Position numbers and translations under genes: made by a program
In this document: piece after piece, positions 10,967 to 30,288 of the stretch
Layout: each line of letters begins with the position of its first letter
Position numbering within the stretch: the first letter of the stretch is position 1
DNA from: a virus
Reading direction: 5' to 3' (one strand)
IMG/VR virus record: IMGVR_UViG_3300005253_000078
Location: 1 to 45,199 of that record
DNA length: 45,199 bases
The notes under the pieces: model-generated
Databases searched by the model: none
What the model saw: only the letters and a program-made list of their open reading frames with translations
What the model was told of the DNA's origin: nothing

Positions 10967-11197
10967 ATGTCTATTCGAGTAGGTGAGAAGAAACTAACCA
11001 GCCAGTACCACCATAAGGGGGGACACAATAAGAGCATGTGCTATGGAGCTAGGAGTTGGTATAAGGCCGACGGACAACCTATAAGTATGCACAGCTATAT
11101 GGTGATGGGAGTGCCACAGTCCGAGAGAGGCCGAAACACCAATGAGGATGGATGGTGGTGTGAGAACTGCTGTAGGGAGCGAGGCTGGCTGTGGTAA
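10967..11197 (+). CDS. LW1: small zinc-finger-like protein with C-terminal Trp (76 aa)
   Basis: Founding member here of the LW family. These are short Cys-rich proteins whose end is nearly always C-x2-[C/H]-x7-W-COOH, usually with an earlier CxxC, resembling a treble-clef or zinc-ribbon layout. In LW1 the terminal knuckle is C65-x2-C68 (plus C69) before RERGWLW, and the N-terminal ligands look like His15/16/20 with C25. LW1-LW3 form a subfamily with a Y-[HP]-x-K-x-G-C element. The stop overlaps LW2's GTG by 7 nt. I do not recognise the family; function unknown. Confidence 0.8.
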   Translation: MSIRVGEKKLTSQYHHKGGHNKSMCYGARSWYKADGQPISMHSYMVMGVPQSERGRNTNEDGWWCENCCRERGWLW

Positions 11198-11385
11198 AGT
11201 TCGCCTGGGTATATGGTGCACGAGTCTACCACACTAAGGGTCAGTGTTGGCATAGTAAGGCATACAGGGATGATGAGACCTATCTCATTAGTGGAAAGCG
11301 AGCTTATTACTACGACTGCCCCGCTGCGTCGGGCAATATGCTCTACTGCGAGGATTGCTTACGAGAGATGGGCGTACTATGGTAA
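11191..11385 (+). CDS. LW2: small zinc-finger-like protein with C-terminal Trp (64 aa)
   Basis: GTG start inside the Trp-stop of LW1 (GTGGTAA). C19-W-H21 and C43 in the N-terminal half, then C53-x2-C56 and LREMGVLW. YHTKGQ-C aligns with LW1 and LW3, supporting tandem duplication. Stop overlaps LW3 by 7 nt (ATGGTAA). Confidence 0.75.
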   Translation: MVKFAWVYGARVYHTKGQCWHSKAYRDDETYLISGKRAYYYDCPAASGNMLYCEDCLREMGVLW

Positions 11386-11594
11386 GTGAGAGACTTAGAT
11401 TCTATCGCTATCCCTGGGGATGGCCGCACTACCCTCACAAAGATGGGGCTTGTCATGGAGGTTATCTTTCTAAGAAGGGGGGCTTCATTAAGTCAGACCG
11501 TGCCTATCATGTGCCAAGCAGTATAAGTGGGAGTAGATACAACAACATCGTTTACTGTGAGGAGTGTTGCTATGAGAACGGCTGGCTCTGGTAG
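11379..11594 (+). CDS. LW3: small zinc-finger-like protein with C-terminal Trp (71 aa)
   Basis: ATG at 11379 in the ATGGTAA junction. C25-H26 after YPHKDGA, then C60-x2-C63 (and C64) with YENGWLW. Its Trp codon is preceded by C (CTCTGG), so no start codon is formed at the end, yet the Trp is kept. Aromatic-rich N-terminus. Confidence 0.75.
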   Translation: MVSERLRFYRYPWGWPHYPHKDGACHGGYLSKKGGFIKSDRAYHVPSSISGSRYNNIVYCEECCYENGWLW

Positions 11595-11642
11595 CCAAGT
11601 AGGAGCGCCCCCAAAGGCGCGGTGTCGAGAGACAAGGGAGCT

Positions 11643-11834
11643 ATGATAAGACTAGCGGAGTCTACTCACCAGAAGATACGAGAGTCTATAGCAACTAATG
11701 GTTTCTGTTACCAAGAAACTCATAAATCTTTTGACTGTCACGTCTGTAATGGTAGTGTTCGTACTGTACTCAAGCTAGGTGTAAACTGGTGTCTCTGCGA
11801 CCACCATAAGCGAGAGGTGGGTGTACTGTGGTGA
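11643..11834 (+). CDS. LW4: small zinc-finger-like protein with C-terminal Trp (63 aa)
   Basis: ATG at 11643 is chosen because the following M-I-R-L-x-E-S-T aligns with the start of LW5; a GTG 21 bp upstream is possible. C32-x2-C35 and C52-x2-H55, then KREVGVLW. Shares its terminal REVGVLW exactly with LW5. 7-nt overlap with LW5 (GTGGTGA). Confidence 0.75.
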   Translation: MIRLAESTHQKIRESIATNGFCYQETHKSFDCHVCNGSVRTVLKLGVNWCLCDHHKREVGVLW

Positions 11835-12019
11835 GACTGGAGGAATCCACTTATGCTAGTATTCGCAAAAGCCTTGAGATGGGGGGTGAGCTACATATTG
11901 GGGGTGGTACGGGGTGTGATATCTGTCTCCAAATTACAACATATGTACTCTATTCCTCGGCTTCCCATGACTGGTACCTGTGCGAGCACCATGCGAGAGA
12001 GGTTGGGGTGCTATGGTAA
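11828..12019 (+). CDS. LW5: small zinc-finger-like protein with C-terminal Trp (63 aa)
   Basis: GTG start within the LW4 stop. C30-x2-C33 and C52-x2-H55 with AREVGVLW. Same length and ligand spacing as LW4: a clear tandem duplicate with diverged middle. Followed by the hairpin region at 12041-12081. Confidence 0.75.
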   Translation: MVRLEESTYASIRKSLEMGGELHIGGGTGCDICLQITTYVLYSSASHDWYLCEHHAREVGVLW

Positions 12020-12040
12020 ATACCCCACAGCTATCGCCTT

Positions 12041-12261: not shown

Positions 12262-12273
12262 AGGAGTTAGCTA

Positions 12274-12497: not shown

Positions 12498-12699
12498 CTG
12501 CGCCATGCCCACCTGCTTCACTCCTGCCGTACCCCGCTCTCAGTGGTGCTCAACCCACTCCCTTCAAGTCCAACGGGTACGTGGCTACATGAGTGAGGCC
12601 GAGAGTGATATGGCAAGCAAGCCGTCGTACACACCCATTGACTCCCACATCCATATCCTATCCACTCCACGTGAGCGGCACCAGCGTGCCTGCCGATGA
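12490..12699 (+). CDS. Small Cys/His protein (69 aa)
   Basis: ATG in the ATGACTGA overlap. C4-x4-C9 and WC-x2-H near residues 20-24 form a compact N-terminal Cys/His cluster; the C-terminal half is Ser/Glu/His-rich and probably unstructured. Lacks the LW ending. Coupled to LW6 by ATGA. Confidence 0.6.
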   Translation: MTDCAMPTCFTPAVPRSQWCSTHSLQVQRVRGYMSEAESDMASKPSYTPIDSHIHILSTPRERHQRACR

Positions 12700-12908
12700 C
12701 TGCCGCTCATAAGGAGCTAATGCTCCGATACATTAAACAGTGTTCCGGGCGGGTGGAGTTTAACGGTGACTGTGACATATGTTGGGTCGAGCGTCCTAAC
12801 GTCAACCTGACGTTGGAATCCTATATTGACGATGGAGAGGGTGGTATCACTACCATGCTCCCCAACCTATGCCTTGCCCACGCCATGGAGCTAGATGTGG
12901 TGTGGTAA
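12696..12908 (+). CDS. LW6: small zinc-finger-like protein with C-terminal Trp (70 aa)
   Basis: ATGA-coupled start. C26-D-I-C29 and C59-x2-H62, then AMELDVVW. The N-terminal L-R-[YF]-[IL]-K-Q helix and the T-L-x-S-Y-I segment match LW7, marking a tandem pair. Stop and LW7 start overlap as TAATG. Confidence 0.75.
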   Translation: MTAAHKELMLRYIKQCSGRVEFNGDCDICWVERPNVNLTLESYIDDGEGGITTMLPNLCLAHAMELDVVW

Positions 12909-13150
12909 TGCACAAGACTCAACGCCGAGTGATGCTCAGGTTCCTCAAACAGCATGCTGGGAAGTGGGTCGTGGCTATGGCCCCGCGAGATTGTGATATT
13001 TGTTATTGCTTAGAGCGTGCTAAGGAGGAATCTCATGTCACACTAGTAAGTTATATAGCTAAGAGGGCATGGGATGATAAAGGGCCATACTCAGGTAGTC
13101 CACCCCTGCTCTGTGCCTCCCATGCACAAGAGTTAGGCTTATTATGGTAA
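12908..13150 (+). CDS. LW7: small zinc-finger-like protein with C-terminal Trp (80 aa)
   Basis: ATG at 12908 (TAATG). C29-D-I-C32 (plus C34), C69-x2-H72, ending AQELGLLW. Closest relative is LW6 (LRFLKQHAGK, VTLVSYIA). Twenty-two bases separate it from LW8. Confidence 0.75.
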   Translation: MHKTQRRVMLRFLKQHAGKWVVAMAPRDCDICYCLERAKEESHVTLVSYIAKRAWDDKGPYSGSPPLLCASHAQELGLLW

Positions 13151-13171: not shown

Positions 13172-13408
13172 ATGATAAGGATACTACGTGTCCATAGGAA
13201 GGGCTGTGTTATTTTAGGTCATTGTGGAGCACCATTTACCACCGATTCAGTCTCTATTGGCATGGGTTGTGGCCAGGAAATAAAAGGGGACATACATTCC
13301 TTGCTGATTACTGATGCTCCGAAAGATGGATTCGGCAATCTGAATCTCCTATGCACGGCATGTGCCGCCAAGCAAGGCTTGAAGTGGAAGGTAGAGGACG
13401 CATACTAA
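13172..13408 (+). CDS. LW8: divergent LW-family protein with tail after the Trp (78 aa)
   Basis: ATG behind AAGGAGAGGTGAT. Four candidate ligands, C18, C33, C61-x2-C64, followed by AAKQGLKW and then six more residues (KVEDAY). It is the only member where Trp is not the last residue, so it shows what the family looks like once the terminal Trp is buried. Ends 17 bp before the MoxR-type ATPase. Confidence 0.7.
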   Translation: MIRILRVHRKGCVILGHCGAPFTTDSVSIGMGCGQEIKGDIHSLLITDAPKDGFGNLNLLCTACAAKQGLKWKVEDAY

Positions 13409-13425: not shown

Positions 13426-14514
13426 ATGGCAACGAAGAAGAAGGAGCAGCAAGAAGCACTAAGCACACACAACCTGTATCAGACCACAGTCTCTGGCTAC
13501 AAGGACATACTCAAGCGGATGATTAGCAATCTGCCGCCTGACAAATGCCCTGCCATGATTGGTATTGGTGCGGTGGGCATCGGCAAGACAGAGAGTGAGA
13601 CCTCTTTGTTCCGTGAACTTCTAGAGGCGGGTGTCGTCAAGTCCAACATCATCAGGCACTTGAGTCAGGTACACCCACTTGACACGGGTGGTGTCGGCAT
13701 TGACCCTGCCACTCGCACCATGTACTTCGCCAAGCCTCCCCTAGTAGATGAGGTGATGAACCTGCCTGGCCCGCGCATCCTGTTCCTCGATGAGATTGAC
13801 CGCATCCAGCCCATCGCACAGTCAGGCATGCTTCAGGTACTTAGTGAGAAGAAGCTCAATGGCTTCGACTTGGAGGATACCTATGTGATAGGCGCAGGCA
13901 ACGCATGGCACGCACAGTACACCTTCGAGATGGACAAAGCCTTCGCCTCTCGTCCTATCATCATGCACATCGAAACGTCTGTCCGTTCCTGGTTGGAGTG
14001 GGCACTCTCACGTGGAGTGCATGAGTCCGTAATCACAGCCATCCAACTGGCTCCTGACATCTTGAACCAGCATGATGACTTCAAAGACACTGACCTGCTC
14101 AAGGTGGCTGACCCCCGTGCATGGACAAACTTCTCCCATGCCCTCAACCACAAGGCTGCTGGGCCAGACGAGGCAGCCATGTTCGTCGGCGAGAACGCAG
14201 GCCGTAAGTACCAGCGCTACTATCAGTTCCGCAACGACTATAGTGAGTTGATTGAGCAGCTACTCGATGGTAAGCCCGTCAATACGGAAGACTCCAACCT
14301 CCTGCTCGCTGTCTACCTCACCACCGCTGGCCAAATCACCAAGATACCCCAAGCCTACAAGTTCCTCACCTTAGCCAAGAAGCAGATAGGCGATGAGAAG
14401 AGCTACATCGTTGGCCGCCTGCTCACCTATCGCATCCCTACAGTAGAGTTGCTCAAAGACGAAAAGATAAAGAGACTTCATCACTTGTTTCTGGAAAAGT
14501 ACAAAGGTGAGTAG
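13426..14514 (+). CDS. MoxR-type AAA+ ATPase (362 aa)
   Basis: ATP-driven remodelling chaperone of the MoxR/VWA type. Walker A GAVGIGKT (residues 48-55), Walker B RILFLDEID (117-125), followed by a sensor-like VIGAGNA segment (154-160). ATG behind AAAGGAGGGGTGACG. It is followed by a protein with HExxH and a VWA-like DNSGS motif, the standard MoxR partner. In hosts such pairs insert metals or remodel complexes; the phage target is unknown. Confidence 0.85.
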   Translation: MATKKKEQQEALSTHNLYQTTVSGYKDILKRMISNLPPDKCPAMIGIGAVGIGKTESETSLFRELLEAGVVKSNIIRHLSQVHPLDTGGVGIDPATRTMYFAKPPLVDEVMNLPGPRILFLDEIDRIQPIAQSGMLQVLSEKKLNGFDLEDTYVIGAGNAWHAQYTFEMDKAFASRPIIMHIETSVRSWLEWALSRGVHESVITAIQLAPDILNQHDDFKDTDLLKVADPRAWTNFSHALNHKAAGPDEAAMFVGENAGRKYQRYYQFRNDYSELIEQLLDGKPVNTEDSNLLLAVYLTTAGQITKIPQAYKFLTLAKKQIGDEKSYIVGRLLTYRIPTVELLKDEKIKRLHHLFLEKYKGE

Positions 14515-14659
14515 GGAGCTATGTAAGGCTGACCCTCCTCTTGGCCCCAACTACAATAAGCCTCATGTGCCAGTCGATGGCAGCTACGATGGGAAGCCCC
14601 GCCTTAGTTGTCTCTACTGTGGACGATGGTTAGACAAGGAGCCTATCAATGCAATATGA
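14507..14659 (+). CDS. Small CxxC protein between ATPase and VWA partner (50 aa)
   Basis: GTG start overlapping the ATPase stop by 8 bp and ending 11 bp inside the next gene, so it fills the only gap between them. C6 and CLYC (residues 35-38) suggest a zinc site; Pro/Asn-rich middle. Its codons also contain the ribosome-binding site of the next gene (AAGGAG). Moderately supported. Confidence 0.5.
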   Translation: MSRELCKADPPLGPNYNKPHVPVDGSYDGKPRLSCLYCGRWLDKEPINAI

Positions 14660-15839
14660 CCTGATGGAACAGATTAAGAAGTGGCGCAGAGGTGTATGCA
14701 AGGCCATCCCTGCATTCGATGCCATCCTCTATGCAGCTACCTACGAAGAGGACAAGTCAATCCAGACTCTTGGAATTAACAATGAGACTCTCAAGATTAA
14801 GGTGAATCCAGAGTTCGTTGCCAAGCAGACTGAGGCCGACATAACTTTCATCCTGGCGCACGAAGCTGCCCACTTCCTATGCGACCACCTTCGACGCCGC
14901 CAAGCTATGGCGCGCCAAGAAGGAGACGACTATCGCCATGACCTCGCCACTGGTGCTCAAGAGTACGCCGTCAACACCCTGGTCGAGAGCCTGTCTGGTT
15001 GGAACACCCCGAAGGGCACTGAGTACCAGCCGGTAGAGAAGTGGAAGATGCTCGCTTGGGAAGAGATATACAAAGAGATGAAGAAAGACCCCGCCAATAA
15101 GCTGCCTCCAGTCCTATGCTTATGCGGTGGGGATGGCAAGGATGGTGATGGCAAACCACAGACAGGCGTGGCACAGATGATAGCGGAACAGGCACGTGAG
15201 GCCACCACCAAGACTCTTCAACAGGGCATCAGTGGCCAGCCCCCTGGCGACCAAGTAGGTGAGCTACGACAGCTCCTACTTGATAGGCTTGGCTTGCTCA
15301 AGCCTCCCGATTGGCGTCGCCAACTGGCTCGCTACTTGACCGCACTCGACACCAACTGCAAGCACTTCGACCCCCGCTCCATCTACCGCCGTGCCATGTG
15401 TGATGGACGCTACATGGTACTGCCCAACCTAGCCAGCGAACCCATAGCTCGCCGCTTCGCCCTCTCTCTTGACAACAGCGGCTCCGTATGTGACGAGATG
15501 TTCACTCAGATACTAGGCACCGTCCACTCTGCCACCCAACAGCTAGGCTTCAAGGAACTCTATGTCTACCACTTCACCTGCGCCATCATCAAGCGTCTCC
15601 GCCTGACCACGGCCAGTCAAATCAAGAAGATAGCCCGTGAGGGCAGCGGCGGCACCGACATCCACGAGGTAGATATGCAGGCCAAGAAGGATGCTTGTAT
15701 GTTCAACATCATCGTCACCGATGGCTACGTCGAGTGGCTGACCAGCTATGCCGTGCCTACCCTGGTGGTACTGACCGTCGAGGATGTGCAGCCACCACCT
15801 AAAGTCCACAACCTGGTCGGTACTGTCTATGTCTCGTGA
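14649..15839 (+). CDS. VWA-like metallopeptidase-type protein, MoxR partner (396 aa)
   Basis: N-terminal zinc-protease-like domain with HEAAH (residues 71-75) and a likely third ligand in the GAQEYAVNTL helix (about 102-111). A Gly/Asp-rich linker (about 159-205) leads to a C-terminal VWA-like domain with the MIDAS-type DNSGS (275-279) and a GGTD element (about 338). This matches the DUF2201-type putative metallopeptidase that pairs with MoxR ATPases. Translation is linked to the ATPase through the 50-aa gene. Confidence 0.85.
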   Translation: MQYDLMEQIKKWRRGVCKAIPAFDAILYAATYEEDKSIQTLGINNETLKIKVNPEFVAKQTEADITFILAHEAAHFLCDHLRRRQAMARQEGDDYRHDLATGAQEYAVNTLVESLSGWNTPKGTEYQPVEKWKMLAWEEIYKEMKKDPANKLPPVLCLCGGDGKDGDGKPQTGVAQMIAEQAREATTKTLQQGISGQPPGDQVGELRQLLLDRLGLLKPPDWRRQLARYLTALDTNCKHFDPRSIYRRAMCDGRYMVLPNLASEPIARRFALSLDNSGSVCDEMFTQILGTVHSATQQLGFKELYVYHFTCAIIKRLRLTTASQIKKIAREGSGGTDIHEVDMQAKKDACMFNIIVTDGYVEWLTSYAVPTLVVLTVEDVQPPPKVHNLVGTVYVS

Positions 15840-15858
15840 TGTGGGGTGGGTGGTTGGG

Positions 15859-16053
15859 ATGGTTGAAACAGTAGAGAAGGCTTGGTTCAACAATCCTAAG
15901 AAAACAATCGAGCCTTATCCTGAGTGCAACTGGTGCGACACGGAACTGTCCAATCCTGATACCCTGTTGGTGATGCTGACTCAGGTAGGTGCCAGCTCCC
16001 CAATGGGTTGGGTGTGTGAGTCATGCGCCAGAGAGAGGAACTTGATATGGTAA
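15859..16053 (+). CDS. LW9: small zinc-finger-like protein with C-terminal Trp (64 aa)
   Basis: Start uncertain: ATG 15859 gives the usual M-V opening, GTG 15841 is possible. C23-x2-C26, C53-x2-C56 with ARERNLIW. 7-nt overlap with LW10 (ATGGTAA). Confidence 0.7.
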   Translation: MVETVEKAWFNNPKKTIEPYPECNWCDTELSNPDTLLVMLTQVGASSPMGWVCESCARERNLIW

Positions 16054-16244
16054 TCAAGGTGCACCACGTCAAGGCTGACCCCTTATGGTTAGGCCACGAG
16101 GAAAGGGATGCGAGATTTGGTTGGACTTGTCCAGAGTGTAAAGTCCAATACTACTGGAGTCAATCGTGGAGCTATGCGGGGCCAATAGAGGACGGCGGTT
16201 ATATATGTCTCGACTGTGCCCATCGGCTAGGCTTGCTATGGTAG
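16047..16244 (+). CDS. LW10: small zinc-finger-like protein with C-terminal Trp (65 aa)
   Basis: ATG within the LW9 stop. C28-P-E-C31 and C54-x2-C57, then AHRLGLLW. Aromatic middle (YYWSQSWSY). Its stop is one base from the -35 of the promoter at 16246. Confidence 0.75.
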   Translation: MVIKVHHVKADPLWLGHEERDARFGWTCPECKVQYYWSQSWSYAGPIEDGGYICLDCAHRLGLLW

Positions 16245-16245
16245 C

Positions 16246-16274
16246 TTGACTTCCCTTTCATAGTGTGCTATACT
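16246..16274 (+). promoter_or_regulatory. Internal sigma70-type promoter (leaderless for the nuclease gene)
   Basis: TTGACT (16246-16251), 17-bp spacer ending TGTGC, TATACT (16269-16274). The ATG of the nuclease at 16282 coincides with the predicted start site and has no ribosome-binding site, implying a leaderless mRNA. Starts one base after the LW10 stop. Confidence 0.8.
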
Positions 16275-16281: not shown

Positions 16282-17088
16282 ATGAATCTCGACTTCTCCA
16301 GGTATGATGCCTTCCACCGCAACATGGAGAAGTATAGGCTGCACTACCTTCTCAATCTTACGCCAGCCACACCGAACTACTACTTACAGCGGGGAATTTC
16401 TTTCCATCTTATGCTTGAGCATCATAGCAAGGGTAGGAGTGGAGCAGAAATTGAACTCCTGGTGAAGAGAGAGGTGCAAGACCTCAAGGCTATCGCTGCT
16501 GCCAAGCGCATGTTCGCACACTGGCTCCAACGCTATAACCCAAGCGGCCCCATCATACTAGCTGCCGAGCCGGAGTTCCTCCAACAACTGCCCAACTCAC
16601 CTCACTCCATCTGTGGCAAGATAGACCAGATACTGGAGATAGATGGTCGCCAATGGGTGGGCGAGGTCAAGACTACCAACTCACGTAACACCTTCGCTAA
16701 GATAAGCACTCAGTGGCAGACGCGTAAGCAGGCAGAGTTCGAGCTGATAGGCGCGCAGGCTCTCGGCTACAAGCCGCTTGGTCTACTGGTACGCACGGTA
16801 GTTGAGTCCTCACCGCCCGTCATATGGGAGCTGGTAGTCAAGCGTACCGAGTACCAACTAGAGTTGATGCGGCTGGCTATCCACCAAACGTGTGAGATGA
16901 TAGAGTTCATGCGCCGTACCTTCGGCATAGACCAGCCGTGGCCCCACTCTGAGAACTCATGGCCCTGCATGAACAAGGAGAAGTGCGAGTATGGTAAAAT
17001 CTGTGGCATCAGCAGACCGGAGCAAGACACGTCGGGCTTTAAGCAACGAGAGGAGCACCTGGCCATCCTTCGTCCAGCTCCGCACTAA
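16282..17088 (+). CDS. PD-(D/E)XK nuclease, RecB/Cas4-like (268 aa)
   Basis: Predicted DNA exonuclease for recombination or processing. H42 in the RGISFHLMLE segment, D115 in GKID, E128-V-K130 in GEVKTT, then Gln-rich QWQTRKQ motif: the order H...D...ExK...Q of RecB-type nucleases. The C-terminal C-x5-C-x5-C (CMNKEKCEYGKIC) recalls the Fe-S cysteines of Cas4/AddB, although the fourth N-terminal Cys is not obvious. Probably works with the Sak4-like ATPase next in line. Confidence 0.85.
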   Translation: MNLDFSRYDAFHRNMEKYRLHYLLNLTPATPNYYLQRGISFHLMLEHHSKGRSGAEIELLVKREVQDLKAIAAAKRMFAHWLQRYNPSGPIILAAEPEFLQQLPNSPHSICGKIDQILEIDGRQWVGEVKTTNSRNTFAKISTQWQTRKQAEFELIGAQALGYKPLGLLVRTVVESSPPVIWELVVKRTEYQLELMRLAIHQTCEMIEFMRRTFGIDQPWPHSENSWPCMNKEKCEYGKICGISRPEQDTSGFKQREEHLAILRPAPH

Positions 17089-17098
17089 AGTGGGTTGG

Positions 17099-17254
17099 AT
17101 GAAGCTCGGCTCTTGGATTCCCGACTGTTGTGGAAGAGAAATTTCCTACCCATTTGATTACCTTGAGTTTGCTGGAGCCTACAGAGGCTCGAAAGGTTTT
17201 ATGACTAGCCATATGTGTGAGGACTGTGCTCGCAAGCATGGCCTGATATGGTAA
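17099..17254 (+). CDS. LW11: small zinc-finger-like protein with C-terminal Trp (51 aa)
   Basis: ATG 17099 (GTG 17090 also possible). The first knuckle is C10-C11 rather than CxxC; C40-x2-C43 then ARKHGLIW. 7-nt overlap with LW12. Confidence 0.7.
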   Translation: MKLGSWIPDCCGREISYPFDYLEFAGAYRGSKGFMTSHMCEDCARKHGLIW

Positions 17255-17481
17255 AAGATACTCGCTACCCACGCAAAAGAAACCCCACAATAGACCGAAC
17301 TTCCCGTCGGTTTCGGTCGGTCGCTGCGGATTTCCCAACCTACCGATGCACCTCATGCGGCAAGCCGTTGAGGTTCGCAGCCGAAGCCTATGAGTTGGAG
17401 GAACGGCGCTTTCTCAAAGGAGAAGGACACCATTGGGCTTGTGAAGAATGTGTGTATGGTAAGCTAGGGCTGCTATGGTGA
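17248..17481 (+). CDS. LW12: small zinc-finger-like protein with C-terminal Trp (77 aa)
   Basis: Starts in LW11's ATGGTAA. Arg-rich N-terminus (residues 5-23), C34-x2-C37, C65-x2-C68, VYGKLGLLW. It has one residue more than the others between the last Cys and Trp. The basic arm suggests nucleic-acid contact. Confidence 0.75.
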   Translation: MVKDTRYPRKRNPTIDRTSRRFRSVAADFPTYRCTSCGKPLRFAAEAYELEERRFLKGEGHHWACEECVYGKLGLLW

Positions 17482-17484: not shown

Positions 17485-17688
17485 ATGATGAATATAGATA
17501 AATGGCTCGCGTGGGTTCAGGAGGTTGGAGTCACACAGACGACAGATGCTCTGATGGCTTGTGACGTTTGTGAGAAAGAAAACCTTACAAATAAGTGGTT
17601 AAATCACAAGTGGCTAAACGCTTATGGGAGGCAGGGAATACCTAGAGTTTGTCTCAAACATGGCCAGGAACTTAACTTATTATGGTGA
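17485..17688 (+). CDS. LW13: small zinc-finger-like protein with C-terminal Trp (67 aa)
   Basis: ATG 17485 lies after the LW12 stop; the ATG formed in the ATGGTGA junction leads only to a stop after eight codons. C26-D-V-C29, C56-x2-H59, GQELNLLW. Visibly AT-richer than the enzyme genes. Its stop abuts the promoter at 17690. Confidence 0.75.
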   Translation: MMNIDKWLAWVQEVGVTQTTDALMACDVCEKENLTNKWLNHKWLNAYGRQGIPRVCLKHGQELNLLW

Positions 17689-17689: not shown

Positions 17690-17718
17690 TTGACTTTCAC
17701 TCTCAACTGTGGTACAAT
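17690..17718 (+). promoter_or_regulatory. Internal sigma70-type promoter before the Sak4-like gene
   Basis: TTGACT (17690-17695), 17-bp spacer ending TGTGG, TACAAT (17713-17718). The transcript carries an AAGGAG site before the ATG at 17742. Begins directly after LW13. Confidence 0.8.
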
Positions 17719-19646: not shown

Positions 19647-19660
19647 GGGGTCGCCTTGAA

Positions 19661-20816: not shown

Positions 20817-20845
20817 TTGACTTTTGCTGACGCGTGTGGTAAAAT
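20817..20845 (+). promoter_or_regulatory. Internal sigma70-type promoter before the SSB-like gene
   Basis: TTGACT (20817-20822), 17-bp spacer ending TGTGG, TAAAAT (20840-20845). Leader with a GAGGAG site before ATG 20886. A strong separate promoter fits an abundantly needed protein. Confidence 0.8.
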
Positions 20846-23215: not shown

Positions 23216-23440
23216 ATGGCATTGAAGAGATGGTTAGAGTTGGCATGTAATATCTGCACGACCAAGAAGATGGTGGAGCTGACTGGTGAGGAGCAGGAGG
23301 TCAAGCAGGAGATGGTAGGATGGTACAACATCGTCACTGATACGGAGCAGGGGCCGGAGACTTACCTGGTGTGCTCTGGCAAGTGCTTGAAGGAAGTAGG
23401 CGACATAGCTATGAAGGCTACCATCGAGAGGAAAGGCTAG
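23216..23440 (+). CDS. Cys-rich hypothetical protein (74 aa)
   Basis: ATG behind AAGGAGAGACTAAC. CNIC (residues 11-14) and C-x3-C (CSGKC, about 53-57) form a possible zinc site. Similar in plan to the LW proteins but without the terminal Trp; ends in a basic helix. Confidence 0.6.
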   Translation: MALKRWLELACNICTTKKMVELTGEEQEVKQEMVGWYNIVTDTEQGPETYLVCSGKCLKEVGDIAMKATIERKG

Positions 23441-23577: not shown

Positions 23578-23901
23578 GTGTGGAGAGCTAAGAGCGAACG
23601 AGTAAATATAGGGGAGCTGCACCCACAACTGCGGTTGGCGTTGGAGAAGGCGGGTGTGTTGCACGACCTGTTGTTCGGCAAGCCTCTCATCGTGACGAGT
23701 GGTAACGACGGCAGGCACAGTCGCACCAGTAGGCACTATCGCAACATGGCCATCGACATACGCTCGTGGGACAAGTCAGAGCTAGGGCAGTTGACGTTCC
23801 ATGTGATACTAGCGCAGTTGGCAAAGGAGTATGACCTTGCAATCTTCGACGAAAGGAATCGAGATAAAGCTCCCCACTGGCACCTTGAAATCGCAGACTA
23901 A
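23578..23901 (+). CDS. M15-type peptidoglycan peptidase, endolysin candidate (107 aa)
   Basis: Zinc D,D- or L,D-peptidase fold: SRHYRNMAIDIR (residues 51-62, ligands H53 and D60) and HWH (100-102) give the H-x6-D ... HxH signature of M15/VanY-type enzymes. GTG 23578 is chosen for its perfect AGGAGG spacing; GTG 23554 or ATG 23563 would lengthen it slightly. No signal peptide, so export through the holin is expected. It is the best endolysin candidate although far from the holin gene. Confidence 0.8.
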   Translation: MWRAKSERVNIGELHPQLRLALEKAGVLHDLLFGKPLIVTSGNDGRHSRTSRHYRNMAIDIRSWDKSELGQLTFHVILAQLAKEYDLAIFDERNRDKAPHWHLEIAD

Positions 23902-24025
23902 GCAACTCGAAATAGTTGACCCCCTTAACTGTGACGTGTGCCAATGGCAAGGGCTTCCGTCGTACAATCACTTTGATATGTGGCTATGCATAGAGCATGC
24001 TCAGGAGCATGGCCTGATATGGTAA
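23831..24025 (+). CDS. LW22: small zinc-finger-like protein with C-terminal Trp (64 aa)
   Basis: The start at 23831 overlaps the peptidase by 71 bp; TTG 23885 would shorten it. C34-D-V-C37, C53-x2-H56, AQEHGLIW. Confidence 0.65.
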   Translation: MTLQSSTKGIEIKLPTGTLKSQTKQLEIVDPLNCDVCQWQGLPSYNHFDMWLCIEHAQEHGLIW

Positions 24026-24035: not shown

Positions 24036-24362
24036 ATGGCAGTAGCGTGGCATGACCGCATGAAGGAGTGGGAAGCTCTAGGTGATAAAGCATGTAAGGA
24101 GCAAGGGCGTATCCTGCTCGTGAACAACCTGATGACAGGCGAGCGTATCATTGCCGACGAGCAGTCAGGTGACTTTGTCAAAGACATGAAACTCATCATC
24201 GAGATGCAAGGAGCTGACCACTACCATGAGGTTATTGGTGAGATGATGTATCCTATGAACTGCCTGAATGACACTCCACATCATGCGCTGTGGGACGCTC
24301 GTAAGGTGGAGCATGTGCGGCTGTGCATTGACCACGCACGCAAGGATGGCTGGCTATGGTAA
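24036..24362 (+). CDS. LW23: long LW-family protein (108 aa)
   Basis: ATG behind AAGGAGACAGAC. A larger charged N-terminal domain without CxxC (single C20 and C76), then C97-x2-H100 and ARKDGWLW. Longest member; the first knuckle seems degenerate or built from His residues (HYHE, PHH). 7-nt overlap with LW24. Confidence 0.7.
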   Translation: MAVAWHDRMKEWEALGDKACKEQGRILLVNNLMTGERIIADEQSGDFVKDMKLIIEMQGADHYHEVIGEMMYPMNCLNDTPHHALWDARKVEHVRLCIDHARKDGWLW

Positions 24363-24598
24363 AGCTAGGCAAGCGAAGAAAAGCTGCTTTACTAGAAAGT
24401 CTCAAGAAGTGGCACGCCGAAGCCTCCACCGTCGCTAACAACGGCTATTGGGATGTAGGTGAGTGTGATGTCTGTGAAGAAATGGTTGAGGAGAGACTTT
24501 CGAGCTTAGAGCAGTGGTTTCCCAATGGGGCAGTGGCTTCCGACCCCCCTTGGCTATTCTGTGAGGAACATGCTCGTGAGTTGGGGGTCATATGGTAG
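24356..24598 (+). CDS. LW24: small zinc-finger-like protein with C-terminal Trp (80 aa)
   Basis: Begins in ATGGTAA. Basic N-terminal helix (residues 3-20), C37-D-V-C40, C69-x2-H72, ARELGVIW. Its stop overlaps the next gene (ATGGTAG). Confidence 0.75.
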   Translation: MVKLGKRRKAALLESLKKWHAEASTVANNGYWDVGECDVCEEMVEERLSSLEQWFPNGAVASDPPWLFCEEHARELGVIW

Positions 24599-24822
24599 AA
24601 TCAGTCACGCTCAAGCTGGCGCGTCATCTGCATGATAGGCATCACCCCGTTCAGGCATGGGACTCCTGCGTCCAGGGCTGTCGAGACTTCTACTCTCTGA
24701 TGGCTGACTCTGCCATCCTGTACTTGAAGGAGCATGACCATATGAAGCAGACATTAGGCGACCAGCTAAGGCAGCGTAAGTTGGACGAGAAGTTGGCCGC
24801 TCAAATGGAAGGAGGCGAATAG
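24592..24822 (+). CDS. Hypothetical helical protein (76 aa)
   Basis: Starts in the ATGGTAG of LW24. His-rich N-terminal helix, C-x3-C (CVQGC, about 26-30), then a long charged helix. No LW ending. Its stop shares a base with the next GTG (TAGTG). Confidence 0.65.
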   Translation: MVESVTLKLARHLHDRHHPVQAWDSCVQGCRDFYSLMADSAILYLKEHDHMKQTLGDQLRQRKLDEKLAAQMEGGE

Positions 24823-25262
24823 TGGTTATTTATCTAGCTGGCTTGATTAGCACCGACCGTCCAGAGTCCTTGACCTGGCGTGATGAGGCTGCGTTCCGGC
24901 TCGTTGAGGGCTGGGGCCTCGACGTTCTGTCGCCAGTCCGAGGCAAAGACATGGCTACTAGCACAGACGGTGGCCTATCTACGCCTAAGCAGACCAACAA
25001 GTCCATCATACTGCGGGACTACAACGACATCCAGCAGGCCGACATGCTGCTGGTCAACCTCAACCTGTGGGGCAGCACCCGTCCACTAGTAGGCACCCTG
25101 ATGGAGCTAGCATGGGCCTGGGAGATGAAGATGCCCGTCGTAGCCATATGCTCCAAGAGCGACAGGCTGATGCGCGACCACCCCTTCATCCAAGAGTGCG
25201 TGTCGCACTACTGCGAGACAGTAGGGGAAGCAATAGACTTCATTGGAAGGTATCATGCGTAG
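24822..25262 (+). CDS. Nucleoside 2-deoxyribosyltransferase-like protein (146 aa)
   Basis: Rossmann-like NDT fold: VIYLAGLIS at the N-terminus, RDYNDIQQADMLLVNL (about residues 67-82) and GTLMELAWAWEMKMPVVAI (about 91-109, with the family's catalytic-region Glu). Such enzymes swap or hydrolyse the base of deoxynucleosides or nucleotides, so a role in pool editing or base modification is likely. GTG start from the TAGTG overlap. Confidence 0.75.
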   Translation: MVIYLAGLISTDRPESLTWRDEAAFRLVEGWGLDVLSPVRGKDMATSTDGGLSTPKQTNKSIILRDYNDIQQADMLLVNLNLWGSTRPLVGTLMELAWAWEMKMPVVAICSKSDRLMRDHPFIQECVSHYCETVGEAIDFIGRYHA

Positions 25263-25464
25263 AGTCACATACATGGTAAAGCTACATTATGCCGACCCCG
25301 TGCCGGGTTTCGTAGACTTCAAGATTACATATAGACCGATGCAACGCACTGAATACTACATGCCATGGGGCGTAGTGACAGTTGACGAACTACACAAAAT
25401 GGAGTATACTGAACGTGCTGACTGGTGGAATGACCCTGACTACGAGTATATGGACTCAGAGTGA
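25255..25464 (+). CDS. Hypothetical protein (69 aa)
   Basis: ATG overlaps the previous stop by 8 bp (ATGCGTAG); ATG 25273 is an alternative. Tyr/Trp/Asp-rich, acidic C-terminus. GTGA overlap with the next gene. Not recognised. Confidence 0.6.
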   Translation: MRRVTYMVKLHYADPVPGFVDFKITYRPMQRTEYYMPWGVVTVDELHKMEYTERADWWNDPDYEYMDSE

Positions 25465-25793
25465 GTGGAACCAAACATGATACTGGCAAAGCTCGCTTTG
25501 ACCTGCTGCCTGTCAAGCCGCTGTTCAAGGTGGTTGAGGTCTATACGATAGGGGCCAAGAAGTACAGCGACAGAAATTGGGAGAACGGTCTCAAGTGGGG
25601 CCGTGTCTTCGCCGCAATGATGCGCCACGGATGGGACTGGTGGCGCGGTGAGAAGCTAGACCCCAAAGATGGGCAGCACCACCTAGCCAGTGTAGCCTGG
25701 TGTGCCCTGACTCTCATGGAGTATGAAGAGACACACCCGGAATTTGATGACCGACCTAAAGGAGACGAGAATGCCAAGGTACAAACGCCGTAG
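25461..25793 (+). CDS. dATP/dGTP diphosphohydrolase-like protein, DUF5664 type (110 aa)
   Basis: All-alpha NTP pyrophosphatase-like. HDTGKARFDLLPVKPL (residues 6-21), GAKKYSDRNWENGLKWGR (about 31-48), RHGWDWWRGEKLDPKDGQHH (about 55-74) match the family known from phage dATP/dGTP diphosphohydrolases such as MazZ. In Z-genome phages this enzyme works with PurZ, which is absent here. Likely adjusts dNTP pools. GTG start. Confidence 0.8.
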   Translation: MSGTKHDTGKARFDLLPVKPLFKVVEVYTIGAKKYSDRNWENGLKWGRVFAAMMRHGWDWWRGEKLDPKDGQHHLASVAWCALTLMEYEETHPEFDDRPKGDENAKVQTP

Positions 25794-26352
25794 TAGGAAG
25801 CCCCACCAATCTAGCGCGCCCATTCACGAGCTAATAGACCGTTCGGCCATGGCCCGCCGCGAAGTCTACGTCACCGGGATTATCAACTCTGAAGCCCATT
25901 ATTATCTGACGCGCATCCTCACCTATTTGGCAGAGGACTCTAAGAAGCCTATCAGCATCATCCTCAATACTCCGGGAGGCTTGGTGGCTGATGGCTTAGC
26001 TATCTATGATTTGCTTACGACCATCGGGCGGCGAGCGCCCATCAACATTGTTGCCACCGGCCAGTGCATGAGCATGGGGGCCATCATACTACAGGCAGCC
26101 AACAAACGCTGGGCCACCCGCCACTGTGCCATCGGCCTTCATGAGCTACATGCCGAGAGCATCGGCACTTACTCGAAGTTGGAGGAGAATCAAGTAGAGA
26201 TTCGCAAGACACAATCCCTCCTCGATGACATCATCACCAACCGCACAGGCATGACACGCAAGAAGTTGAAAGGGCTCATCAAACGCAGAGAGACAGTGCT
26301 CACGCCTGACGAAGCCCTTGAGCTGAATCTTATCGACGGAGTAATAGAGTAA
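25771..26352 (+). CDS. ClpP-like serine protease (193 aa)
   Basis: Crotonase-fold ClpP core: LNTPGGLVADGLAIYD (residues 65-80), nucleophile S101 in GQCMSMGA, general base H124 in AIGLHELH. The triad Asp position aligns with E174 (RRETVLTP, where ClpP has RDNFMS), so activity may be altered. ATG 25771 behind AAAGGAGACGAG; overlaps the previous gene. Phage ClpP homologues often act as head proteases, but this one is in the replication operon, far from capsid genes. Confidence 0.8.
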   Translation: MPRYKRRSRKPHQSSAPIHELIDRSAMARREVYVTGIINSEAHYYLTRILTYLAEDSKKPISIILNTPGGLVADGLAIYDLLTTIGRRAPINIVATGQCMSMGAIILQAANKRWATRHCAIGLHELHAESIGTYSKLEENQVEIRKTQSLLDDIITNRTGMTRKKLKGLIKRRETVLTPDEALELNLIDGVIE

Positions 26353-26606
26353 TGGCTGGCAACGGTAGTAACGTGGCAGGGTCAGGGAGTTTGCCCGCCG
26401 GAGATCTTGGCCAATTCTTTCCTGCCCAACCTAGTACATGGCCTGACCCCAAGACAGAGTTTCGTAAGTCCACCAATGAGATAGAAGGAAAGGAGTGGTT
26501 CGAGATGGATGTCTCGCAGGCCGATACCATCGTCATTATCCACGAAGGCAAGCGAGTGGAGATGGATAAGAAGGACTTTCTCCAAAGGATAGGTCTCGAA
26601 TGGTAA
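26352..26606 (+). CDS. Hypothetical protein ending in Trp (84 aa)
   Basis: TAATG coupling to the protease. Gly/Ser/Pro-rich N-terminus (residues 1-40, probably disordered), then a small alpha/beta part ending QRIGLEW. No Cys, yet it ends in GLEW with the same ATGGTAA overlap into LW25: it has the LW tail without the zinc site. Confidence 0.65.
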   Translation: MAGNGSNVAGSGSLPAGDLGQFFPAQPSTWPDPKTEFRKSTNEIEGKEWFEMDVSQADTIVIIHEGKRVEMDKKDFLQRIGLEW

Positions 26607-26818
26607 GCTCCGAACACGATAAACTCATACGCAAATATGTGGCGAATTTTGCTGGGGTCTATGAACTCAAAATGTGCAAGACCAGTTGTGATAGATGTAG
26701 TGAAGCCCATAGCGAGTACTATGTAGAATCTATTCTGAATTGGATGCACCCTGGCTATGGAGGTGCTCCGCCCTATCTCTGCATTGACTGCGCCCGTCAC
26801 TATGGATTAGTCTGGTAA
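26600..26818 (+). CDS. LW25: small zinc-finger-like protein with C-terminal Trp (72 aa)
   Basis: C26 and C30-D-R-C33, C61-x2-C64, ARHYGLVW. The Trp codon follows GTC, so no start codon arises; the next gene uses its own GTG two bases later. Confidence 0.75.
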   Translation: MVSSEHDKLIRKYVANFAGVYELKMCKTSCDRCSEAHSEYYVESILNWMHPGYGGAPPYLCIDCARHYGLVW

Positions 26819-26820: not shown

Positions 26821-27564
26821 GTGGCGACGGTCTTCAAGTCGTTCATCACCCAGGTCATCAAGCCCGGCTACTTTTACATCAAGCCGCTCCTGCCCCGCAA
26901 GGGCAAACTCTTATTGGCTGCTGACCCCAAAGCCTTCAAGTCCATGTTAGCCCTCAACATTGCGTACTCTCTCTGCGAGGGCTCGTTGGTCATGGACACG
27001 TTCCCCGTCAGTGGGCCTAAGCGAGTACTCCTCATTGAGCAAGAGGTCGGGCCTGAACGCCTCGTCCAGCGCCTCACTGACATACATGGGGAGCGCAAAG
27101 GCACGAAAGTGCTCGACAACTTCTGGATTACCAGCCGTGACCTGGATTGCAGGCTCGATACTAAGAGTGGGCGAGGGCTCATCGCTAGCCACATCGAGGA
27201 GGCCAAGCCGCACGTGGTCATCTTCGACCCGCTCGCCAACTTCCACCACATAGACGAGAACTCCAACTCAGAGATGAAAGTCCTACTGTCGGAGTTGACG
27301 CAGATGCAAGAGACCTATGACTTCGCCTCCATTATCATCCACCACATGGGCAAAACCTCAGAGCACCGCACGCTCTCGTCACCCGAACGCCTACGAGGGG
27401 CTGGTGTGCTGTTCGCTGACGTTGACACACTGGCTGTGATATGGAAGCCGGACTTCCGTCAGCGCAATAACATCTCCATACGATTCGCCACCCGCTCACC
27501 CATAGACCAGGACTTTCTGAAGCTGGAATTCCAAGAGAAGGAAGGTACATTCAAACGTGTCTGA
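26821..27564 (+). CDS. RepA-like AAA_25 ATPase, candidate replicative helicase (247 aa)
   Basis: RecA-fold hexameric ATPase. Walker A-like AADPKAFKSML (residues 33-43, Phe replacing the Gly before Lys, as in some RepA-type members), Walker B VVIFDPLANF (about 133-142), and IIIHHMGK (about 175-182), the HH-x-GK sensor of RepA helicases. No primase or DnaB is visible elsewhere, so this may be the replicative helicase. GTG start. Confidence 0.75.
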   Translation: MATVFKSFITQVIKPGYFYIKPLLPRKGKLLLAADPKAFKSMLALNIAYSLCEGSLVMDTFPVSGPKRVLLIEQEVGPERLVQRLTDIHGERKGTKVLDNFWITSRDLDCRLDTKSGRGLIASHIEEAKPHVVIFDPLANFHHIDENSNSEMKVLLSELTQMQETYDFASIIIHHMGKTSEHRTLSSPERLRGAGVLFADVDTLAVIWKPDFRQRNNISIRFATRSPIDQDFLKLEFQEKEGTFKRV

Positions 27565-27739
27565 AGTTATAAATACGTTTAAGGAAGCCTGTCTCCAGTT
27601 GCATGAATTGAGAGACTATTGGTGTGGCATCTGTCAAAGTTTCGCTGAGCGAGGCTGTCGCAACTATGAGGGATGCAAGGACTATCACCACTTCAATATC
27701 TGCGAGGACTGCGCCCGTAAGGAAGGCTATCTATGGTAG
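27557..27739 (+). CDS. LW26: small zinc-finger-like protein with C-terminal Trp (60 aa)
   Basis: GTG start in an 8-bp overlap with the helicase. C23-G-I-C26, extra C34 and C40, C49-x2-C52, ARKEGYLW. 7-nt overlap with LW27. Confidence 0.75.
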   Translation: MSEVINTFKEACLQLHELRDYWCGICQSFAERGCRNYEGCKDYHHFNICEDCARKEGYLW

Positions 27740-27912
27740 AGATTGTGCGAGTTCTGACCATCTATTGTGATAAGTGCGGCCCCAAGTACGGTGATGTAGA
27801 CATGCGCAAACGGAGGACAATTATTGGTTGGGCTCATCACCCCACGCCCCCTTATAAAGGGCTAAAGTGGTATTGCGAAGACTGCTCTCAGGAGCTAGGC
27901 CTCCTATGGTAG
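27733..27912 (+). CDS. LW27: small zinc-finger-like protein with C-terminal Trp (59 aa)
   Basis: Starts and stops in ATGGTAG junctions. C12-D-K-C15, basic middle (RKRRT), C48-x2-C51, SQELGLLW. Its stop contains the polymerase start, so polymerase translation is probably coupled to it. Confidence 0.75.
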   Translation: MVEIVRVLTIYCDKCGPKYGDVDMRKRRTIIGWAHHPTPPYKGLKWYCEDCSQELGLLW

Positions 27913-30119
27913 CTCTGGTCATGCCGCTGGCCACCAAAGCAGGCAGCACTGGCCAACCATCCACGTGCAAGGGCTGCCCGCTGTATGGTGTCGGCAAGGG
28001 CTTTGTACTAGAGCCTGCTCCGGTCTGGTCGAAGATAAAGATGGCCATCATAGGCGAGGCCCCTGGCACCAATGAGGTGTTGCAAGGCAAGCCGTTCGTC
28101 GGTAAGGCTGGCTGGTGGCTCTTGAAGAACATTCTAAATCCTGCTGGACTCAGCAGAAAGGACGTGTATCTTGACAATACTCTGCGATGTTTGCCCCCTA
28201 AGAATAAGCAAGGTGAAGCGTACCCTGTGGGAACTGATAAGCTACAGGCTGAGATGCATTGCCGCCAATATGACAAGTTGGTACCGTCGAACGTGCCTAT
28301 CATGCTGGTTGGAGGCAAGGCGCTTGGACAAAAACTCGGACTAACTGGCATTTCGGATTGGCATGGGCACGTCACCCTCCAGGCCGGACAACTGGTTGGT
28401 TGTACGTTTCACCCATCGGCGGTGATGCGTCAGCCCAATCTGCTGCCCGTTGCCATACGTGAGCACTACAACCTGCTCACCGCCCATGCCAATCCATCCA
28501 TCTTGAAGCACCCCACGGTGGTCAAAGGCATGTTGTCTGACCAGGCTGGGCCAATGGTGTTCGACCTAGAGTGGGACATCAAATCTAAAGAGATTACCTG
28601 TATAGGAGTAGCTTATGAAGCCGACAAAGCATACTCAACCTACGACGTGGTTGCTAGTAAAGAGTTATTGGTTTCCCGTCTTACTGCCTCTCGCCTGGTT
28701 ATTGGTCATAACGTTATCGATGCCGATTTCAATGTTATGGGCCACCATCCCACTAACTATTCTCCTTCTTGTATTTTCGATACTAAGGTGGTCGCTCACC
28801 TTATCCACGCACATTTGGCCAACTTGGGTCTGTTGGGTCTTCGAGCTACAGTCAGTTATTACCGGCCCACTACCGGCTGGAAAGAGGATAAGGAAGACTT
28901 ACTGGAGTATAATGGGCGAGACTGTGCCTACAACTACTACCTCTACGAGCAGCTCTGCGCCGACCTCGACACCACCAATCAGTGGCACCTAGTCGAGAAG
29001 CAACAGCGCCTAGCTAGGCTGGCCGTGCTGATGAGGGAGCGAGGAGTTGACATCGACCTGAGAGCAGTCAGGCGGTATCACCGTGAGTGGCAGGGCAATA
29101 AGCAGTTGCTGAAGGATGACTTCCCGTTCAATCCCAACAGCCCTAAGCAGGTCATAGCGTTTTTCAAGGAGGAGGGGATTACGCTGCGGGACACCAAGGA
29201 AGTGACCATCAAGCGGCAGGCTGACCGGCACCCGCTGATGGAGCAGTTGGCAGACTACAAGGAGCTGGGGGTCAAGCCCATCACCACGTGGTTCCCACTA
29301 GGCAAGAGCAAGGTACATCCCACGTTCAATGTGACGGGCACGGATGTGGCGCGCTTCTCGTCTAGTGAGCCGAACTTCCAGAACATCCCACCGTCACTGC
29401 GCCGCATGATAGTGGCTCCGGAGGGCATGGTCATTGTGGGGCTGGACTTCTCACAGATTGAGAACAGATGTGTGGCGTGGCTGGCTGGAGACAAGCAGAT
29501 GCTGGCTGACTTCGCTTCGGGCATGGACTTTCACCGGCTCTCAGCGAGCCGAATCTACAACAAGAGGTATGATGATGTCACAGACTGGCAGCGATATGAA
29601 GGGAAGAAAACCATTCATTCAACTAATTACGGAGAGACTGCTGCAAGCCTTGCTGAGCGAGTGTTTGGAAGCCGCCGCCAAGGAGCCGTCGCTGATGCAG
29701 TCGCTCTCCAAGAAGCATATTTCGGTGCGTATCCGGCTATACGAACATGGCAGCGGCAAGTCTCAGACAATTTCGAGAGGGGAGACATTACCTTAGTCAA
29801 CCCCTTTGGAAGAGTGAGGTATATCTATGGACAAGATGCTCATACGAGGAAGAAGAAGGGCTGTCACTACTACGGGTGCTCTAGTGCTGCTGACATTGTC
29901 AATCAGCGGGCTCTGGATATATGGGAGGCGGAAGGGCTGGTTCCCATCCTCATCGTCCATGATGAGCTTGTCTATTGCCTACCTGTTGGTACGGCAACAG
30001 CTACAATCGCACGTCTCAAAGATATTATGACGCAGCCAGTCAAGGAGATGGGTGGGTTGGTGGTGCCTGTCACGGCAAAGGTGGGTGCAGACTATGGTAA
30101 CTTACGAATTCCTGAGTAG
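27906..30119 (+). CDS. Uracil-DNA glycosylase (family 4-like) fused to family A DNA polymerase (737 aa)
   Basis: Replicative polymerase with three parts. Residues 1-195: Fe-S uracil glycosylase type, with C21-x2-C24, C95, C119, GEAPGTNE (50-57) and HPSAV (169-173). Residues 215-350: DEDDy exonuclease, FDLEWD (219-224), VIGHNVIDADF (265-275), YNGRD (335-339). Residues 370-737: PolA palm/fingers, DFSQIENR (514-521, motif A), R563...K568...NYG (motif B), HDE (685-687, motif C). ATG 27906 from the ATGGTAG of LW27; an upstream in-frame start would overlap LW27. SPO1-type phage polymerases also carry a glycosylase-like domain. Confidence 0.92.
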   Translation: MVALVMPLATKAGSTGQPSTCKGCPLYGVGKGFVLEPAPVWSKIKMAIIGEAPGTNEVLQGKPFVGKAGWWLLKNILNPAGLSRKDVYLDNTLRCLPPKNKQGEAYPVGTDKLQAEMHCRQYDKLVPSNVPIMLVGGKALGQKLGLTGISDWHGHVTLQAGQLVGCTFHPSAVMRQPNLLPVAIREHYNLLTAHANPSILKHPTVVKGMLSDQAGPMVFDLEWDIKSKEITCIGVAYEADKAYSTYDVVASKELLVSRLTASRLVIGHNVIDADFNVMGHHPTNYSPSCIFDTKVVAHLIHAHLANLGLLGLRATVSYYRPTTGWKEDKEDLLEYNGRDCAYNYYLYEQLCADLDTTNQWHLVEKQQRLARLAVLMRERGVDIDLRAVRRYHREWQGNKQLLKDDFPFNPNSPKQVIAFFKEEGITLRDTKEVTIKRQADRHPLMEQLADYKELGVKPITTWFPLGKSKVHPTFNVTGTDVARFSSSEPNFQNIPPSLRRMIVAPEGMVIVGLDFSQIENRCVAWLAGDKQMLADFASGMDFHRLSASRIYNKRYDDVTDWQRYEGKKTIHSTNYGETAASLAERVFGSRRQGAVADAVALQEAYFGAYPAIRTWQRQVSDNFERGDITLVNPFGRVRYIYGQDAHTRKKKGCHYYGCSSAADIVNQRALDIWEAEGLVPILIVHDELVYCLPVGTATATIARLKDIMTQPVKEMGGLVVPVTAKVGADYGNLRIPE

Positions 30120-30288
30120 CAAAGGGCCTTGTGAGTCTTGTATATTCTGCGAGTGGTGTGGGCCATCATATCCAGACCAGAGTCACAAGCCAGGAACCTG
30201 TTACCATCTTCGCCAGAGCACTAAGGCTGGATTCTCTGATATAGTGGTTTGTGCAGACTGTCTTAGGGAGAAGGGTTTGATTTGGTGA
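30094..30288 (+). CDS. LW28: Cys-rich LW-family protein (64 aa)
   Basis: ATGGTAA start inside the last codons of the polymerase (26-bp overlap). Richest in Cys: C13, C16, C19, C22, C36 then C53-x2-C56, LREKGLIW, perhaps two zinc sites. Last gene of the operon; its 3' end overlaps the convergent late operon by 26 bp, and Trp is kept although nothing starts there. Confidence 0.75.
   Translation: MVTYEFLSSKGPCESCIFCEWCGPSYPDQSHKPGTCYHLRQSTKAGFSDIVVCADCLREKGLIW

Follow-up and report, generated by a model that had tools for sequence, protein, structure and literature searches.

Several described systems share features with the LW genes reported here, 28 small genes (LW1 to LW28) in a 45.2-kb virus record, IMG/VR IMGVR_UViG_3300005253_000078, analysed over its full 45,199 nt (the window). 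The internal proteins of T-even phages (IPI and relatives) are likewise a small, highly diverse phage protein set sharing only a short constant segment, and IPI* inhibits a host restriction enzyme (PMC3012670). The T4 gene tifA, like LW genes small, is a counter-defence gene that is amplified via short-repeat recombination under host pressure (PMC9391042). Archaea encode many small CPxCG-related zinc-finger proteins per genome, of <100 amino acids (aa), with two Cx2C/H knuckles and diverged elsewhere (PMC2253796). In termination-reinitiation gene pairs, overlapping stop and start codons couple translation (PMC6728339, PMC10666635). Overlaps of 4, 1 and 8 nt are typical of such pairs and were by far the commonest in one survey, in which the phase with 7 nt was several-fold rarer among long overlaps (PMC10666635).

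The LW genes differ from each of these systems. The constant part of the T-even internal proteins is a capsid-targeting sequence and the proteins are packaged in the head, whereas the constant part of LW proteins is the C-terminus and their genes belong to the replication operon, which is encoded on the other strand from the structural genes. The amplified tifA genes are laboratory tandem copies of one gene, but those of LW genes are old and diverged and lie scattered across about 12 slots. A terminal Trp rule is not mentioned in the available text on the archaeal proteins, and LW genes are phage genes arranged in cassettes; by eye, a CPxCG-like pattern is seen in a minority of LW proteins (e.g. 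LW10, LW12, LW17, LW20, LW21, LW27) and is absent from most. Where LW genes overlap the next gene, the overlap is 7 nt and is supplied by the last codon of one family. T4-like phages also carry free-standing homing endonucleases, multicopy genes inserted between phage genes, as LW genes are. LW proteins are too small for this class, however, and have no consistent HNH or GIY-YIG match; HNH/endonuclease VII profiles gave only isolated weak matches among 98 LW members. It seems likely, with a probability of about 0.6, that the LW genes encode lineage-specific, fast-diversifying accessory zinc mini-proteins and form exchangeable, translation-coupled cassettes in the replication operon.

A family of small proteins ending in tryptophan

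A six-frame scan of the window found 28 plus-strand open reading frames (ORFs) with the Trp ending, the number given in the preliminary description; on the minus strand, the same scan gave one loose 25-aa match without a start codon. The ending C-x2-[C/H]-x7-W-stop is strict in 26 of the 28, LW12 having x8 and LW8 carrying KVEDAY after the Trp. The second ligand is Cys in 18 proteins and His in 10, and an upstream CxxC is present in 21, all as first counted. Lengths vary with the start chosen (53–108 aa here, from inferred start sites). LW genes make up 31% of the stretch 10967–30288 and 13% of the genome. They are indeed interleaved with nearly all operon genes, the exception being the gap between the moxR and VWA genes, which holds zero LW genes in every phage compared. 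An LW protein has a variable body, usually with a first Cx2C knuckle; a second knuckle, C-x2-[C/H], opens the last helix, which ends in Gly or Asn, two hydrophobic residues and the invariant Trp (tail consensus C-E-D-[C/H]-A-R-E-x-[G/N]-[L/V/W]-[L/I/V]-W). No N-terminal segment is shared, the constant part being C-terminal.

The window was compared with five related records (G001, G003, G004, G005 and L024); the near-copy G002 was kept apart. LW genes number 20 in G004 and 25 in G005, both nearly complete records, and 19 in a 32-kb fragment of a third relative, while G003 and L024 are shorter records carrying the same family. After removal of identical copies, the LW set comprises 102 distinct members. 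A profile hidden Markov model (HMM) of the family, minus the last four residues, was run over 4,583 ORFs and returned 108 matches ending in W. No match without the W was better than an expectation value (E) of 0.016, and the first two such matches were LW8 and its orthologue, in which the W is followed by the KVEDAY tail. With a leave-one-slot-out profile, 99 of the 102 members beat all 20 shuffles in which every Cys and His was kept in place. The tail-less HMM and the Cys/His-preserving shuffle test rule out chance or composition as the origin of the pattern, and together with the presence of the family in all five related records they indicate that the members are one family and not unrelated sequences. 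When the tail was removed, 59 of 102 members beat their shuffles (His type 27/36, Cys type 32/66). Since removal of the tail cuts the successes this far, the bodies are strongly diverged outside the knuckles, as had been proposed, and the tail is the constant part.

The view that the LW proteins belong to no described family also stood. Searches of Pfam, PHROGs, NCBIfam, the PDB (sequence and fold) and BFVD (fold) gave no family match; hits in Pfam, PHROGs and NCBIfam were scattered and weak, each to 1–3 of 98 members, and Foldseek with a model of LW5 returned nothing below E 0.8 in the PDB or BFVD. PDB profile matches to PRDM9/ZNF were dismissed, as they track Cys spacing in C2H2 arrays. Among 2.9 million viral contigs, LW DNA patterns identified this clade, and the extra loci of a relaxed pattern matched the LW profile no better than E 0.049. 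In GTDB (85,000 genomes), the stricter pattern gave 0 matches and the relaxed pattern 3 chance matches; the match in L052, an Acidobacteria metagenome-assembled genome, is a 20-codon ORF past the end of another gene and was rejected as chance. No LW genes were found in distant relatives recognised by polymerase (21–27% identity) or terminase (24–47%), and literature searches for such a phage protein family found nothing. In the collections searched, the LW family appears lineage-specific, confined to this phage clade. A possible outgroup is a zinc-ribbon-like protein (CxxC...CxxCGRE) without the terminal Trp, encoded upstream of polA at L030:9174–9572 (+) and in near-copies, which matches the LW profile at E of about 1e-4 to 5e-4. 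Within the window, a conserved backbone protein at 23216–23440 (CxxC...CxxxC-LKEVG, without Trp) is weakly LW-like (profile E about 1–9).

The Trp-stop junction and cassette exchange

In about half of the LW genes, the Trp-stop doubles as the start of the next gene, a feature overlooked in the preliminary description. Preceded by A or G, TGG plus stop reads [A/G]TG GTR in the other frame, which is a start codon followed by Val. An ORF of at least 40 aa starts at −7 at 48 of 100 LW ends, so that the second start overlaps the first stop by 7 nt, as in coupled gene pairs; the next gene is an LW gene in 32 cases and a backbone gene in 16. The codon before the Trp ends in A or G at 48 of 48 overlapping ends versus 37 of 52 others, 15 of which end in T or C (P = 2e-5), and it is CTA at 26/48 versus 5/52 (P = 1e-6); identical copies were excluded from these counts, and the P values are nominal, the sequences being related. 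No excess of CTA is seen for Leu two codons ahead of the Trp, a position that cannot yield a start. Because the A/G and CTA bias sits only at the start-forming codon, the base before the Trp is constrained by the next gene. Purine-rich (Shine-Dalgarno-like) context before the overlapping starts did not differ significantly (P = 0.07).

Overlap at 48 of 100 ends with so strong a codon bias could mean that the terminal Trp is a mere by-product of overlapping starts, the residue itself being unselected. This explanation is largely refuted and very improbable. Where no ORF of ≥40 aa overlaps the end, the Trp is still present in 52 of 52 members, including 15 whose preceding codon ends in T or C, and LW8 keeps its Trp internally, ahead of a conserved six-residue tail. 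Since these members retain the residue where it forms no start, the Trp is selected at the protein level too.

Four backbone genes (RlpA-like, p20174, p24592 and polA) keep the −7 start in 16 of 16 phage-gene cases (four phages per gene), that of polA in the window, G003, G004 and G005. The LW gene upstream of these kept starts is mostly poorly matching between phages, with 21–33% identity before polA and 11–36% in most other pairs. Backbone order is fixed, and the backbone proteins of the related phages are mostly 85–97% identical, a few faster ones 54–80%. The number of LW genes per comparable slot ranges from 0 to 4, and upstream of moxR from 4 to 8. Between LW16 and p20174, the window has two extra cassettes, G005 has one, and G001 and G004 have none; between LW14 and the RlpA-like gene, the window and G004 have one cassette each and G001 and G005 none. 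G004 is without LW12 and LW24, and the flanking genes there meet at the same codon. Wherever gains and losses were inspected in these slots, the border is the TGG-stop. G005 also preserves a crossover scar. Its recA-polA gap holds two LW genes, the first followed by an exact 22-bp copy of the polA start and then by CAAGAGGGCCTAATGG, about 13 bp that match the recA end of G004, CAAGAGGGTCTAATGG. Judged from the sequence, this duplication is what an unequal crossover between two recA-LW-polA arrangements would be expected to leave. Downstream of its polA, the same phage carries a 46-bp repeat of the 3′ end of an LW gene. Inside the window, no direct repeats marking recent LW duplicates were found.

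Of 321 best LW matches between phages, 210 pair genes of the same slot (44 expected), and the rest are related LW genes in different slots. Nonsynonymous divergence (pN) of backbone genes is 0.02–0.18 at a synonymous divergence (pS) of about 0.3–0.7. LW pN is about 0.2–0.5 for most pairs, LW23 and LW8 being slower, with LW pS often >0.6, which makes pN/pS a rough guide. LW genes diverge fast; positive selection is not claimed.

A ribosome ending one LW gene could start on the next gene at the Trp-stop, and the addition or removal of a cassette at the junction would leave its neighbours undisturbed. Arrays may grow when phages recombine unequally, their genes diverging afterwards. Selfish LW cassettes with little function of their own, kept by their fit to the junction and by the translation of downstream essential genes, would likewise be expected to show exact junctions, variable copy number and strong divergence, and four backbone genes do take their start from the junction. 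Selfish maintenance is distinctly unlikely, however. The conserved knuckles and Trp and a pN/pS below 1 imply selection at the protein level, some slots hold the same LW gene across phages (LW16, LW23), and nearly a third of a compact operon (31%) would be a high cost.

Zinc, the role of the tryptophan and possible functions

The LW proteins form one diversified set with an invariant terminal Trp and are probable zinc proteins, as the preliminary description held. The layout of two Cys/His pairs, the second at the start of a helix, is that of treble-clef and zinc-ribbon folds; by a simple rule, an upstream CxxC is present in 65 of 102 members and a near pair in another 13. The fold prediction proposed earlier succeeded for one type only. 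An AlphaFold model of LW5 from the family alignment, computed without metal and read from confidence values, not coordinates, is confident (predicted local distance difference test, pLDDT, 87.7; predicted template modelling score, pTM, 0.70), whereas the Cys-type model is weak. In the LW5 model, C51/H54 lie at the start of the last helix (52–58), and the last two residues, with a mean of 86, match the core in confidence. The LW proteins are probably treble-clef-like and zinc-binding. In LW5, the modelled Trp fits packing on the core better than a flexible tail, suggesting that it may cap the zinc-helix core, a structural role at least on a par with docking.

The preliminary description had instead read the Trp as a shared C-terminal docking tail. 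Spelled out, the docking hypothesis would have ...GLLW-COOH bind one common partner, such as a component of the replisome, the ClpP of the phage or a host factor, to which the bodies bring different functions. The invariant Trp does stand in a conserved G-[LVW]-[LIV]-W context, and the best clue is the Cys-free backbone protein p26352, whose C-terminus reads QRIGLEW or QKVGLEW in the window and in G001, G003 and G005. Yet the p26352 gene shares 7 nt with its downstream neighbour, and the Trp of the protein may therefore stem from the DNA junction. Nor does LW8, with KVEDAY after an internal Trp, look like a free docking end; the last residues of LW5 are modelled as confidently as the core, unlike a flexible tail, and Gly/Asn at −3 is a normal helix cap. 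The docking proposal is thus supported by p26352 and opposed by LW5 and LW8, and we consider it possible but unlikely. A beta-clamp or PCNA-binding tail and a ClpP-docking IGF loop were rejected by eye, as Gly/Asn/Asp at −3 fits a helix cap.

Zinc-finger-like patterns next to replication genes, with sigma70-like promoter matches after several LW runs, could also point to nucleic-acid-binding regulators of the phage's own transcription or replication. Small haloarchaeal zinc-finger regulators would be the parallel; Brz controls its neighbour in Halobacterium (PMC2253796). This is rather unlikely for LW proteins, whose charge averages close to neutral (median −0.3, range −7 to +7). The promoter matches are no more numerous than in shuffles, and cis regulators of conserved genes do not usually turn over rapidly. 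A role in host takeover, as the preliminary description had suggested, or in counter-defence is favoured, tentatively and at a little under even odds, because many small, fast-evolving proteins of variable presence with a constant end, encoded among replication genes, resemble counter-host repertoires such as the T-even internal proteins (PMC3012670) and amplified T4 tifA (PMC9391042). In that role, LW proteins would be made together with the replication proteins and act in takeover of the host or against its defences.

Beyond the limits already attached to pN/pS and to the LW5 model, several points weigh against LW genes being translation-coupled cassettes for accessory zinc mini-proteins. 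The phages compared are few, several of them from one sample. By the simple rule, 24 of 102 members are without an obvious upstream ligand pair, a few of which do carry a CxxC that the rule missed. The good AlphaFold model is for the His type only, the Cys-type model reaching pLDDT 70. For polA, a conserved ATG five codons further in is a rival to the −7 start. Finally, the proposed function is without a link to a host target or defence system.

Genome context and implications

The window has a 121-bp identical direct repeat at both ends (1–121 and 45079–45199), and the terminal repeat of G004 is 127 bp; the window is probably a complete genome. The portal, terminase and major head protein are encoded on the minus strand, and the replication operon occupies the plus strand from ~11 to 30 kb (Table 1). 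Its enzymes include an AAA ATPase with a VWA/DUF2201 protein, a PD-(D/E)XK nuclease, an AAA_24 ATPase, an RNase H-type exonuclease, a nucleoside deoxyribosyltransferase, a dATP/dGTP diphosphohydrolase, ClpP, a RecA-like AAA_25 ATPase and DNA polymerase A. An SSB-like protein, without a family match, is a guess from its position. The deoxyribosyltransferase and diphosphohydrolase pair possibly plays a role in modified or shifted nucleotide pools. The best-scoring cultured terminase among the matches listed is that of a phage of Tunturiibacter (28%), a weak hint of an Acidobacteriota host.

Table 1. Positions in the window of the LW genes and of other features of the replication operon
Feature	Position	Strand	Remarks
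LW1	10967–11197	+	Cys type; stop TAA overlaps GTG start of LW2 by 7 nt
LW2	11191–11385	+	stop overlaps ATG start of LW3
LW3	11379–11594	+	MV start inside Trp-stop of LW2
LW4	11643–11834	+	His type; stop overlaps LW5 start
LW5	11828–12019	+	His type; AlphaFold pLDDT 87.7, pTM 0.70
LW6	12696–12908	+	His type
LW7	12902–13150	+	His type; GTG at −7 or ATG at −1 relative to LW6 stop
LW8	13172–13408	+	slow-evolving; Trp then KVEDAY; 87% identical in G001
AAA ATPase (MoxR-like), then VWA/DUF2201 metallopeptidase-like protein	13426–15839		
LW9	15784–16053	+	last 12 codons nearly identical to G005, body different
LW10	16047–16244	+	MV start inside Trp-stop of LW9
LW11	16991–17254	+	overlaps end of PD-(D/E)XK nuclease gene
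LW12	17248–17481	+	x8 spacing; cassette absent in G004 and G005
LW13	17485–17688	+	His type
LW14	18409–18669	+	longest ORF from 18358
LW15	18663–18854	+	cassette between LW14 and RlpA-like gene; absent in G005
RlpA/DPBB-like gene	18848–19273	+	start inside Trp-stop of LW15
LW16	19589–19795	+	kept in G001, G003, G004, G005; best-hit identities 64–66% to window copy
LW17	19789–19965	+	one of 0–2 cassettes between LW16 and p20174
LW18	19959–20180	+	stop overlaps p20174 start
p20174	20174–20431	+	backbone gene of unknown function; start inside Trp-stop of LW18
LW19	20428–20628	+	His type; longest ORF from 20386
LW20	20642–20806	+	
LW21	23021–23203	+	His type; longest ORF from 22970; slot empty in G001, G003, G004
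LW22	23831–24025	+	His type
LW23	24036–24362	+	His type; 72–78% identity to related phages
LW24	24356–24598	+	His type; absent in G004, where LW23 abuts p24592 via same 7-nt overlap
p24592	24592–24822	+	backbone gene of unknown function; start inside Trp-stop of LW24
Nucleoside deoxyribosyltransferase and dATP/dGTP diphosphohydrolase	24822–25793		close together
ClpP protease	25723–26352		phage-encoded, in replication operon; Pfam E 6e-30
p26352	26352–26606	+	Cys-free backbone protein; LW-like end QRIGLEW; 7-nt overlap with LW25 start
LW25	26600–26818	+	Cys type; begins inside Trp-stop of p26352
LW26	27557–27739	+	stop overlaps LW27 start
LW27	27733–27912	+	stop overlaps DNA polymerase gene start
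DNA polymerase A gene	27906–30119	+	MV start inside Trp-stop of LW27
LW28	30094–30288	+	ATGGTA start; longest ORF from 30052

The LW genes at 16991, 18409, 19589 and 23831 appear to begin ~60–100 nt within the backbone gene before them, in a different frame, which would leave their N-termini overprinted on conserved coding sequence. Matches to sigma70-like promoters lie at 16246–16274, 17690–17718 and 20817–20845, each directly after an LW run and before a backbone gene; they consist of TTGACT, 17 nt and TATACT, TACAAT or TAAAAT, with TG ahead of the second hexamer, and the total count of such matches in the window is not above that in shuffles. On the minus strand, the end of the protein encoded at 35842–36651 (CILVDT...NHPVYTERG...LSHN) resembles a Hint/intein-type domain by eye and has no Pfam match.

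How phages insert new genes into tight, translationally coupled operons without breaking them is an open question, and one motif, a C-terminal Trp codon and stop with the following start inside it, appears to solve it here. It is conceivable, though just short of an even chance, that the LW genes are an integrase-free, self-fitting cassette system that supplies a fast-turning arsenal of zinc mini-proteins against host functions, with the Trp serving both protein and junction. Should selection act on the Trp both as a residue and as a junction, few examples of a single codon shared by two genes would be as clear. The 102 related, undescribed mini-proteins are a compact set, likely enriched for host-directed functions and directly screenable.

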